Source of the DNA: Lachnospiraceae bacterium
GTDB taxonomy: Bacteria > Bacillota > Clostridia > Lachnospirales > Lachnospiraceae
Length of the DNA stretch: 48,462 nt
Assembly (NCBI GenBank): GCA_017484135.1
Contig: JAFUTQ010000098.1
Coordinates: forward strand, 1 to 48,462
Reading direction: 5' to 3'
Positions 3,524 through 35,776 of this stretch are shown piece by piece. Both the position numbers and the translations under genes were made by a program. Positions within the stretch are counted from its first letter, which is position 1. Each line of letters begins with the position of its first letter. The notes below the pieces were generated by a model that was given only the letters and a program-made list of their open reading frames with translations, had not been told where the DNA came from and searched no databases.

Positions 3524-3693
3524 CCTTGTTCTCCTGCCTGTCCCCTCAAATCATATCATGCTATGCTTTCTCAATCTTGCAGTTATTCTAAATGCACCAA
3601 TGAATCAGATTAGATTTCAGTTTATCATAGCAACGCTTTTTTATCAATCCTATTCTAATATCTTAATTTTGTAATGTTTTTGCACAGATTCTG

Positions 3694-3702: not shown

Positions 3703-3783
3703 TATGATTTGAGGGGCAAAAGGCTCACATCATAATTATTTGTTGTTCATTTGCACAATCTCAACGCAAAGGAGAAGAGATCA

Positions 3784-6700
3784 TTGAAACATAAAAAACT
3801 TAAATCTTGTACCTGTTTTTGCCTGGCACTTTTGACGGTGCTGACTTTCGGGCTTTTAAACAAAACAGCCGATGTTTTTTCGGTTCTGGCTGCGACAGAC
3901 CTGGAAGCAGAAGCTCCCAAAACCACGGTTGATCCGACCGGAGATGGCGAGGGATACTCGGCAGTCCTCTACGATAACACAAACGGACTTCCCACCTCGG
4001 AAGCCAATGCTATTGCGGAAACCTCCGACGGCTTCATCTGGATCGGCAGCTACAGTGGTCTGATCCGCTATGACGGCAACACCTTTGAGCGCATTGATTC
4101 CACCACGGGAATCGCCAGTGTCGTTACACTCTTTGTGGACAGCCGGGAACGCTTATGGATCGGCACCAATGACAGCGGTGTGGCCGTGATGGAAAATAAT
4201 GAATACCACATGTACCACAAGTCCGATGGACTGAAATCCTCCACGATCCGCTCCATCGTGGAAGGTTCTGACGGCAACATTTATATTGCCACGACCCGCG
4301 GGATCGCCATGGTGGATCAGGAGTTGACCCTACATACGGTAGACGAACCTCTGATCAACGAGGAATATATCCGCGTGCTGCGTCTGGGTGCGGATGATGT
4401 CATCTATGGCGTGACGACCAGCGGCGCGGTCTTTACCATGCAGGACGGCAAGCTGACCGGATACTATGACAGCGACAAAATGGGCGTTTCAGATATCCGC
4501 ACCATTCTTCCCGACGCCTCCAACCCCGGCTATGTGTATTTCGGAACGGCGCAGTCCGAGATTTATTACGGCAAACTCCAGAACAACCTTTTAGAGTCCA
4601 CGGTCATTGATGTGTCACCGCTGGAATATATCAATTCGATTGATCAGGTCAATGAAGAGATTTGGATTTCCTCAGATAACGGCATCGGCGTAATAAGAAA
4701 CGGGAAAATCATTGATTTGGAAAATATCCCTGTTGACAGCGCCGCCGAAGGAATGATTGCCGATTATCAGGGAAATCTCTGGTTTGTCTCTTCCAAACAG
4801 GGCGTCATGAAAATCGTCCCCAATCAGTTTACGGATATTTTTGAGCGGTACGATTTGCCCACAACTGTGATAAACACCACCTGTATGTATCAGGATATGC
4901 TCTTTATCGGCACGAAAAGCGACGGTCTGATTGTGGTCGATCAGAATGGTCCGGTAGAAAGCCTGCCCCTTGTGCGCGCATCGTCCGCATCGGGAGAGAC
5001 CATAGACGCAACCGACCTGATAGAAATGCTGCAGGAATGTCGTATCCGCTCGATCGTCCGCGACAGCAAAAACCGCCTTTGGATTTCCACCTTTGGAGAA
5101 AACGCACTGCTTCGCTATGACAACGGCACGGTAACCCGCTTTACCATGGAGGACTGTCTGCCCTCTGACCGCGTGCGAACGGTTTGGGAATGCCAAGACG
5201 GTACCTTCCTCGTAGCCTGCACCGGCGGACTTACAATCCTAAAGGACGACGTAGTCACAGAAATCTATGGGGAAACCTCCGGCATCCGTAACCCGGAGAT
5301 TTTGACCGCGATTGAAGCGAAAAACAAGGATTTGGTTATCGGAACGGACGGAGACGGCATTTATGTGATCCGGGATTCTGAGGTTACCCACATCGGTACA
5401 GAATCCGGACTCGCCTCAGAGGTCGTGATGCGCCTCAAATATGATCTCTCCCGAGATATCATATGGATCGTTACCAGCAATTCACTTGCCTATATGGATG
5501 CCGATTACAATGTGACAACGATAAAGGACTTCCCCTACTCCAACAATTTTGACTTGTATCAAAACAGCAAGGGCGAGATGTGGGTTTTCAGTAGCAATGG
5601 GATTTATGTCACAACGGTGGATGAACTGCTGGCCAACGAAGAAATATCGACCGTGTATTACGGCAGGGACAACGGGCTTTCCTGCATCACGACATCAAAT
5701 TCCTACAGTGAGCTGACGAAGGACGGCGATTTATATATTTCCGGAAGCACGGGCGTGGCAAAGGTCAATATCGAGCAGCCCTTTGAAAGTGTCGACGAGG
5801 TAAAAATGTCAGTTCCCTATGTCGAGACAGACGGCACCTTGATCCAACCCGATGATACCGGAACGATTACCATTCCTTCCAACGTGAAAAAGCTGACTAT
5901 TTACAGCGAGGTGTATAATTATACCCTGATGAATCCCCAGGTCACTTACTATCTGGACGGATTTGATGACACGCAGACAACCGTCCGGCGAAGCGAGCTT
6001 GTACCGATCGACTACACAAATCTCCGCGGCGGATCCTATCACTTTGTCATGCTGCTGAGCGATGCTCAGGGACGCGGAAACAAAGAGTATTCCGTTTCTA
6101 TTGTAAAAGAAAAGGCGCTGTATGAGCTGCTGTGGTTTCGAATCCTCTGCGGTGCGGCGGTCATTCTGCTGATTGCATCGATTGTAATGCTCTATATCCG
6201 TCACAAAACCAATGTCTTTGAGAAAAAAGAAAAACAGCAAAAGCAATTGATCCGCGAAATCGTAGAGGCATTTGCAAAAGTAATCGATATGAAGGACACT
6301 TATACCAACGGTCACTCCTCACGCGTGGCAGAGTATACAGTTATGCTGGCAAAGGAACTGGGCTACGATGAAGAGACGGTGGAACAGTATTACAATATTG
6401 CCCTCATGCATGATATCGGAAAGATCGGTGTAGCACCCGAAGTGCTCAATAAACCCGGCAAGCTGACGGATGAAGAATACGCCATCATCAAATCCCATGC
6501 GCAGCTTGGCTATGACACACTCAAAGGCATCAGCATTATGCCGGAATTGGCGATTGGTGCAGGCGCACATCACGAGCGCCCCGACGGCAAGGGCTACCCC
6601 AGAGGCTTAAAGGGCGATGAAATCCCACGGGTGGCACAGATCATTGCAGTGGCAGACACCTTTGATGCGATGTATTCCACCCGCCCTTACCGGAAGCGCA

Positions 6701-6888
6701 TGAATTTTGAGAAAGCTGTTTCCATCATCAAGGAAGTCCGCGGCACGCAGCTGACCGAGGATGTAGTCGATGCGTTCCTCCGCCTGGTGGAAAAAGGCGA
6801 ATTTCGCGATCCGGACGATCACGGAGGCGGCACAACGGAAGATATCGACAATATACACAAAAAATATGATACGGAGTCAAAGCCGTAA
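3784..6888 (+). CDS. Membrane HD-GYP phosphodiesterase with two-component-type propeller sensor
   Basis: A 1034-residue transmembrane signalling protein. The start is TTG 3784, with AAAGGAG at 3768-3774; it gives a clean signal sequence. Residues about 50-700 are Reg_prop beta-propeller blades (NGLPTSEANAIAE, DGFIWIGSYSGLIRYDG), residues 700-777 a Y_Y_Y domain, and residues 781-805 a membrane span. Residues about 830-1010 are an HD-GYP domain with HSSRVAEY, LMHDIGKIG and HHERPDGKGYPRG, so all metal and GYP residues are present and cyclic-di-GMP hydrolysis is expected. The sensor is extracytoplasmic, usually binding saccharide-like ligands in this architecture. It converges on two hybrid histidine kinases and shares a terminator with them. 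Confidence 0.9.
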   Translation: MKHKKLKSCTCFCLALLTVLTFGLLNKTADVFSVLAATDLEAEAPKTTVDPTGDGEGYSAVLYDNTNGLPTSEANAIAETSDGFIWIGSYSGLIRYDGNTFERIDSTTGIASVVTLFVDSRERLWIGTNDSGVAVMENNEYHMYHKSDGLKSSTIRSIVEGSDGNIYIATTRGIAMVDQELTLHTVDEPLINEEYIRVLRLGADDVIYGVTTSGAVFTMQDGKLTGYYDSDKMGVSDIRTILPDASNPGYVYFGTAQSEIYYGKLQNNLLESTVIDVSPLEYINSIDQVNEEIWISSDNGIGVIRNGKIIDLENIPVDSAAEGMIADYQGNLWFVSSKQGVMKIVPNQFTDIFERYDLPTTVINTTCMYQDMLFIGTKSDGLIVVDQNGPVESLPLVRASSASGETIDATDLIEMLQECRIRSIVRDSKNRLWISTFGENALLRYDNGTVTRFTMEDCLPSDRVRTVWECQDGTFLVACTGGLTILKDDVVTEIYGETSGIRNPEILTAIEAKNKDLVIGTDGDGIYVIRDSEVTHIGTESGLASEVVMRLKYDLSRDIIWIVTSNSLAYMDADYNVTTIKDFPYSNNFDLYQNSKGEMWVFSSNGIYVTTVDELLANEEISTVYYGRDNGLSCITTSNSYSELTKDGDLYISGSTGVAKVNIEQPFESVDEVKMSVPYVETDGTLIQPDDTGTITIPSNVKKLTIYSEVYNYTLMNPQVTYYLDGFDDTQTTVRRSELVPIDYTNLRGGSYHFVMLLSDAQGRGNKEYSVSIVKEKALYELLWFRILCGAAVILLIASIVMLYIRHKTNVFEKKEKQQKQLIREIVEAFAKVIDMKDTYTNGHSSRVAEYTVMLAKELGYDEETVEQYYNIALMHDIGKIGVAPEVLNKPGKLTDEEYAIIKSHAQLGYDTLKGISIMPELAIGAGAHHERPDGKGYPRGLKGDEIPRVAQIIAVADTFDAMYSTRPYRKRMNFEKAVSIIKEVRGTQLTEDVVDAFLRLVEKGEFRDPDDHGGGTTEDIDNIHKKYDTESKP

Positions 6889-19947: not shown

Positions 19948-20130
19948 AAGGATTTCAAAGCCGGAGGGTGACGGGGGACGGAGGTTCACATCGTGAAACG
20001 ATGTGAACACTTTGCGTAAAAAACCGCTTAGGAAAGCTAGCTTTCCTAAGCGGTTTCTTGCGCAAAAGGTCTATGCCGACTCCGTCGGCATGACCTCCGT
20101 CCCCCGTCACCCTCCGGCTTTGAAATCCTT
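19948..20130. repeat. Nested-hairpin intergenic element, copy 1
   Basis: Outer arms of 38 bp (19948-19985 and 20093-20130) are perfectly complementary. Inside are a 10-bp hairpin (TTCACATCGT, 19985-20007), a long hairpin at 20011-20066 centred on GGAAAGCTAGCTTTCC, and a third at 20068-20095 (ATGCCGAC/GTCGGCAT). Read on the minus strand, the last two match copy 2 at 35668-35756 over about 90 bp, with paired changes in the stems. It fills most of the 409-bp gap between the pilus operon and aspS, in which no gene is seen. Confidence 0.85.
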
Positions 20131-35631: not shown

Positions 35632-35776
35632 GGATTTGAGAAATTTGAGGAATTTGAGGGGCACAAGGTCATGCCGACGTAGTCGGCATAGACTTTTTTG
35701 CACAGAAATCGTTTGGGAAAGCGAGCTTTCCCAAACAATTTTTGTGCAAAGTGTTCCCCTCAAATTTCTCAAATCC
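35632..35776. repeat. Nested-hairpin intergenic element, copy 2
   Basis: Outer arms GGATTTGAGAAATTTGAGG (35632-35650) and its exact complement (35758-35776) enclose hairpin ATGCCGAC/GTCGGCAT (35671-35689) and a long hairpin GTTTGGGAAAGC/GCTTTCCCAAAC (35711-35734) inside TTTGCAC/GTGCAAA. The left arm has an extra 9-bp unit AATTTGAGG. The order is that of copy 1 read on the minus strand. It fills the gap between znuB and the DUF5721-like gene. Confidence 0.85.
35665..35697 (+). terminator. Terminator of the zur-znuCB operon, formed by the element
   Basis: AAGGTC-ATGCCGAC pairs with GTCGGCAT-A-GACTTT and is followed by a T-run, 40 bases past the znuB stop. In copy 1 the same hairpin is followed by CCTTTTG, a weaker tract. 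Confidence 0.7.

Follow-up and report, generated by a model that had tools for sequence, protein, structure and literature searches.

REPs are dispersed extragenic palindromes, which are further defined by a RAYT (Y1) transposase. Prokaryotic MITEs, such as ERIC, RUP and Chunjie, are short, non-coding and multi-copy elements with terminal inverted repeats and target duplications. These three are named in a review of MITEs, which also reports truncated copies that resemble REPs (PMC10969869); its main text contains no word starting with 'Clostrid' or 'Lachno'. A further point of comparison is template-switch mutation at quasi-palindromes. As described in two papers, template switching at inverted repeats yields arm homogenisation and spacer inversion (PMC8604942), and it creates or repairs stems in one event (PMC8794818). 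The cases presented there are RNA genes and yeast coding genes.

The element described here resembles each of these in part. As in MITEs, it is short and non-coding with terminal inverted repeats, is dispersed and mostly intergenic, and is accompanied by a target site duplication. Like REPs and REPINs, it is a dispersed extragenic palindrome, and like quasi-palindromes altered by template switching it displays arm homogenisation, loop inversion and stem creation. It is unlike MITEs in that its three-hairpin core is kept across genera while the terminal repeats change, and in that its arms are rewritten in complementary blocks. It is unlike REPs or REPINs with a RAYT in its length (approximately 145 bp), its three hairpins, its terminal repeats and its target duplications. 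In contrast to those template-switch cases, many sites of one mobile family are affected here and host flank is copied across the element. No named family with a three-hairpin layout was found in the literature (open-licence papers, searched by titles and abstract openings), in agreement with the original prediction. The family is MITE-like and, as far as that search reached, unnamed. We consider it probable that this is a non-autonomous, MITE-like element that inserts into intergenic DNA with target duplication, and that its palindromes are then remodelled by replication template switching.

The two copies in the window and their family

The window is a stretch of 48,462 nucleotides from a Lachnospiraceae bacterium (contig JAFUTQ010000098.1). 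It holds two copies of the same multi-hairpin element in opposite orientation, as originally predicted, and their cores match at 83% over approximately 92 bp. Copy 1 is an entire palindromic element on the minus strand that adjoins aspS (19948-20130; model match 19979-20099, minus strand, 127.3 bits). Its outer arm, 19948-19985, forms a perfect 38-bp inverted repeat with 20093-20130 (24 of 24 bases compared are identical to the partner) and is unlike the usual terminal repeat of the family, an 18-bp sequence that this copy lacks. Three hairpins lie between the arms, all on the minus strand: hairpin 1 (20068-20095; GGTC..GCCGAC/GTCGGC..GACC), the long, central hairpin 2 (20011-20066), with GGAAAGC/GCTTTCC close to its apex, and hairpin 3 (19984-20008; GTTCACATCG/CGATGTGAAC). 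Copy 2 is a derivative without hairpin 3 on the plus strand (35632-35776; model match 35663-35769, 77.0 bits). Here, the 19-bp outer arm (35632-35650), in which ATTTGAG is reiterated, is a perfect inverted repeat with 35758-35776, and hairpins 1 (35667-35693) and 2 (35697-35750), both on the plus strand, were assigned by sequence and folding. The perfect outer arms and the nested hairpins had been foreseen; the third hairpin of copy 1, which is lost in copy 2, had been missed. The folding z-scores are -22.4 for copy 1 and -14.8 for copy 2, and none of 200 shuffles was equally stable.

Two remnants are also present in the window. One is a solo half-element (3704-3733, plus strand) comprising the terminal repeat ATGATTTGAGGGGCAAAAGG and a short remnant resembling the beginning of hairpin 3, located upstream of the open reading frame at 3751-6888. 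The other is a terminal-repeat remnant at 3542-3554 on the minus strand, which was read directly as CCCCTCAAATCAT on the plus strand. Among the fragments of the element (these two as well as L092-L100 and L104), many lie, by eye, just 5' of apparent gene starts. TATGAT, which by eye is like a -10 box, is often formed by the terminal repeat together with the adjoining bases, and some fragments may serve as promoters or leaders.

Both window copies are members of a dispersed family that numbers at least 53 copies, some truncated or carrying an insert, in the host genome (2.55 Mb in 116 contigs, 83% complete). With BLAST alone, copy 2 gave 58 matches at 40 places, so that the family extends well past the pair in the window. 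A search with the terminal repeat (at most 3 mismatches) produced 60 forward and 55 reverse matches versus 3 and 8 for a reversed control; this route added 11 places, and two more copies have a hairpin that contains a second repeat. Reading 20 terminal-repeat places revealed 10 fragments and 10 further two-sided or nearly two-sided copies, of which three have a foreign insert and one lacks hairpin 2. The eleventh copy lies at the edge of L030.

A typical element has a core of approximately 115 bp, made up of the three hairpins, between complementary arms that usually contain the 18-bp terminal inverted repeat, although some copies are without it. In element orientation, the terminal repeat GATTTGAGGG[G/T]CAAAAGG is followed by hairpin 1, the long hairpin 2 (GGAAAGC/GCTTTCC), hairpin 3 and then the inverted repeat. 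The suggestion that copies be counted and placed relative to genes was followed: none of 50 copies checked is spanned by an open reading frame (at least 80 aa, simple ORF caller). Forty-three copies have both neighbours called, and these are in tandem (15 in each orientation), divergent (9) or convergent (4) contexts; the counts are approximate, as one neighbour of window copy 1 was mis-called.

A second dispersed repeat of approximately 83 bp was also observed (L109:683-772, L139-L158), for which the host genome gave 49 matches, including short ones and ones in tandem. By eye, it starts with AGGAGG, which resembles a ribosome-binding site, and continues with a micro-ORF (MSEAHFRMASDDMAGDAKRRVPI..). 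It sits inside the hairpins of the three-hairpin element in L109, L141, L155, L090 and L102.

Mobility and spread across genera

The element is mobile. Target duplications were sought at 36 candidate terminal-repeat pairs in the host, with a few copies represented twice. Flush direct repeats are 7 bp long at four of these (0.11 expected), 8 bp at one (0.03 expected) and 6 bp at one (0.03 expected). In G206, which belongs to another genus, target duplications of at least 8 bp are present at seven of the eight copies read versus none of 56 cross-pairs, with the ends allowed a one-base shift. In addition, an empty operon site was identified for copy L107. The host, with this copy, has 213 bp between panB and panC, and all six relatives with a panC match lack the element and have 8 to 50 bp there; the 8-bp value was taken up to where a partial match begins, and one of eight genomes gave no match. 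For copy 1, the sequence 3' of aspS differs in G004, G001 and G005, and no empty site is readable there.

No transposase partner carrying the terminal repeats was seen among the matches listed for G000 and G206, nor in G005. In G000, a SpoIIP-like gene, scoring slightly below the family threshold, and an open reading frame with weak similarity to PPOX lie between the members of two close element pairs. Mobilisation by RAYT, as for REPs and REPINs, was considered and rejected: the Y1 transposase family PF01797 has no matches in three of the four carriers (G000, G005 and G206, the host genome being incomplete) and two in G270.

With model R1, four of 299 genomes in a family sample were matched, including the host, and three of 298 genera. 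With model R2 and strict filters, the host was the only match among 391 genomes sampled from the class. A DNA search of 61 relatives matched two, the host and G005, and a contig search added a single record, from a Lachnospiraceae rumen MAG, in which the element is partial (L040). Viral contigs gave no exact match to the hairpin-1 pattern. In G206, the core is flanked by a different terminal repeat, TTTGAGTTTCC. Some terminal-repeat pairs in that genome are only approximately 60 bp across (C1:275533-275593 and C4:198513-198573), and from their coordinates alone these are apparently mini-hairpins without a core.

Covariation of the hairpins and agreement of the arms

Differences between the stems of the two window copies had been described as paired, and this was upheld. 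The fold covaries across three genera. An unguided alignment was made of 22 chosen copies (21 distinct) from four genomes, with the structure derived from the same sequences. Here, 88.9% of 953 cells pair versus a shuffled mean of 74.2%, 31 of 46 pairs are changed on both sides versus 18.3, and 129 cells are double-changed versus 36.6, with slid versions giving at most 39. Each of these three values was reached by none of 500 shuffles. The number of further pair types was not exceptional, being reached by 56 of 500 shuffles. The existence of the copies and of the paired changes is firm.

The outer arms are unlike between copies and mostly agree within a copy, with exceptions, much as the original prediction proposed from two examples. 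In 44 of the 53 copies, local alignment, which favours matches, yielded 1000 Watson-Crick pairs out of 1045, with 15 G-U, 12 A-C and 18 other; the nine omitted copies are truncated, carry an insert, are cut at a locus edge or were found later. The paired length is at least 25 bp in seventeen of the 44 and at most 13 bp in five (L004, L010, L016, L023 and L036). When 24 ungapped bases of the left arm were compared in 45 copies, the median identity was 0.83 to its own partner versus 0.50 to the arms of other copies. For 26 of these 45, no right arm matched better than the partner, which was strictly best for 22.

Selection for a structural RNA or DNA would account for such paired changes as ordinary compensatory mutations in a functional fold, be it a leader, a terminator, a processing site or a protein-binding site. 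This explanation is unlikely, although it draws on the strong covariation of the three-hairpin layout across three genera and on half-elements that, by eye, often lie 5' of apparent gene starts. Of the originally proposed selection for structure, the RNA form is not supported by wobble counts or by orientation, but the layout is conserved across genera, so that the fold may be under selection. The sense strand has no excess of G-U, with 22 G-U to 35 A-C in the arms and hairpin 2 of 25 tandem-context copies (five further tandem copies fall outside this count), and orientation in tandem contexts is even, at 15 to 15. The corresponding counts are 15 to 12 in the arms of all copies aligned and, in element orientation, 40 to 33 in hairpin 2 alone. 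A known Rfam RNA was rejected, as nothing credible was found: at gathering score the window contains a tRNA only, and permissive settings below threshold with one copy (L007) returned eukaryotic families only. Finally, arms of 25-52 bp that differ wholly, and inversions of inner hairpins and of host coding sequence, are not single-base compensation. Mobility, or the fold at the DNA level, may be under selection, which would explain the survival of the three-hairpin layout across genera.

Apparent rewriting of the arms and template switching as its probable agent

Remodelling by template switching would leave inverted copies of nearby DNA, and these are found. At L034, a DJ-1 family gene (TIGR01383) continues at its 3' end into the terminal repeat, and 22 nt of this end recur inverted on the opposite side, with 19 matching; counting in ten bases of the repeat and two outer ones raises this to 29 of 34. 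This 3' end is ancestral coding sequence, because the homologues in seven same-genus relatives align to residue 181-183 of 185. When the last 40 nt of the gene were sought in inverted form in the 200 nt past the stop, the score was 33 in the host versus 12-16 in the seven relatives read (G001, G002, G003, G005, G006, G007 and G008). In G005 and G001, 7 and 12 bases, respectively, separate the DJ-1 stop from TTACCAACATA, a sequence that the host has on the far side of the inverted copy. Separately, a ACCAACATA motif after the DJ-1 gene is common to the host and to G005, G001, G003 and G008 (L130, L131, L132 and L133); as a guess, it may be the promoter of the next gene.

Over the 16 positions past the terminal repeat, L107 matches at all 16, L031 at 15 and L022 at 14. 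Matches at 12 or more positions occur in three of 28 copies versus 0.5% of cross-pairs, and L034, not included in that count, is a further case. The palindrome extends beyond the terminal repeat in a minority of copies only. In L003, the outer 52-bp arms agree at 52 of 52 positions, and both sides hold the terminal repeat and GGTCATGCCG, which is the left end of the element. L034, L107 and L003 each carry a reverse-complement copy of identifiable neighbouring source DNA, as expected of a template-switch product.

Apparent rewriting is also seen inside the element. By eye, L036 and L108 look converted at the base of hairpin 3, in opposite directions. Among 44 copies, the inner hairpin 2 is inverted in two (L032 and L039) against six in the other orientation, and the loop of hairpin 3 is inverted in three (L003, L022 and L108) against 30. 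Base composition agrees in one half only. Intrastrand switching predicts G over C and T over A in the 5' arm (PMC8794818). In the 5' arms of 11 odd-armed copies, G exceeds C by 140 to 47, which fits, whereas A exceeds T by 94 to 62, which reverses the prediction.

Where flush target duplications are present, in six copies, the palindrome reaches only 2-3 bp past the terminal repeat, and five of these copies have 5-7 flank matches out of 16, where the chance mean is 4.7. Such short extensions suggest that remodelling follows insertion. We infer that replication template switching is the agent. A MITE-like, three-hairpin element, cloverleaf-shaped when folded, would be moved by an unseen transposase into intergenic DNA, with a target duplication of approximately 7 bp, or of at least 8 bp in another genus. 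The nascent strand would then fold back or switch strand and copy one arm onto the other. Both arms would thereby acquire one sequence, and the palindrome could be extended into neighbouring DNA. Loops and inner hairpins would also be inverted by template switching, which may give rise to half-elements.

The odd arms could instead belong to the target, if the element inserts into the middle of palindromes such as terminators or older elements. L109, L003, L039 and L030 do look nested, with a second terminal repeat inside or outside the first, and a second repeat sits inside the hairpins of the three-hairpin element. Even so, this is improbable: in L107 and L034 the terminal repeat runs without a break into the extra arm, no matching inverted DJ-1 end exists in the seven relatives read, and the panB-panC gap is at most 50 bp in the six relatives read. 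Equally doubtful is that the folded cloverleaf itself moves, with a single-stranded, self-primed hairpin intermediate that carries one arm and on which the second is synthesised. If so, each new copy would be born with perfect arms and could carry captured flank, and the core would be a conserved, structure-recognised mobile module that swaps terminal repeats between genera. That the inverted flank copy is made as part of insertion, as the original prediction offered in its second option, is the most improbable: inverted flank is present in some copies (L034, L107, L031 and L022), but the six with flush duplications of 6-8 bp have almost none, and conversions also occur within the element (L036, L108, L032 and L039).

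Insertion followed by template switching does not explain why the core persists across genera despite different terminal repeats. It does turn dozens of parallel insertions in one genome into a natural test bed for bacterial template switching. Paired changes in stems are usually taken as proof of selected structure; here, DNA copying alone could give block-wise ones, which is a warning for RNA discovery based on covariation.
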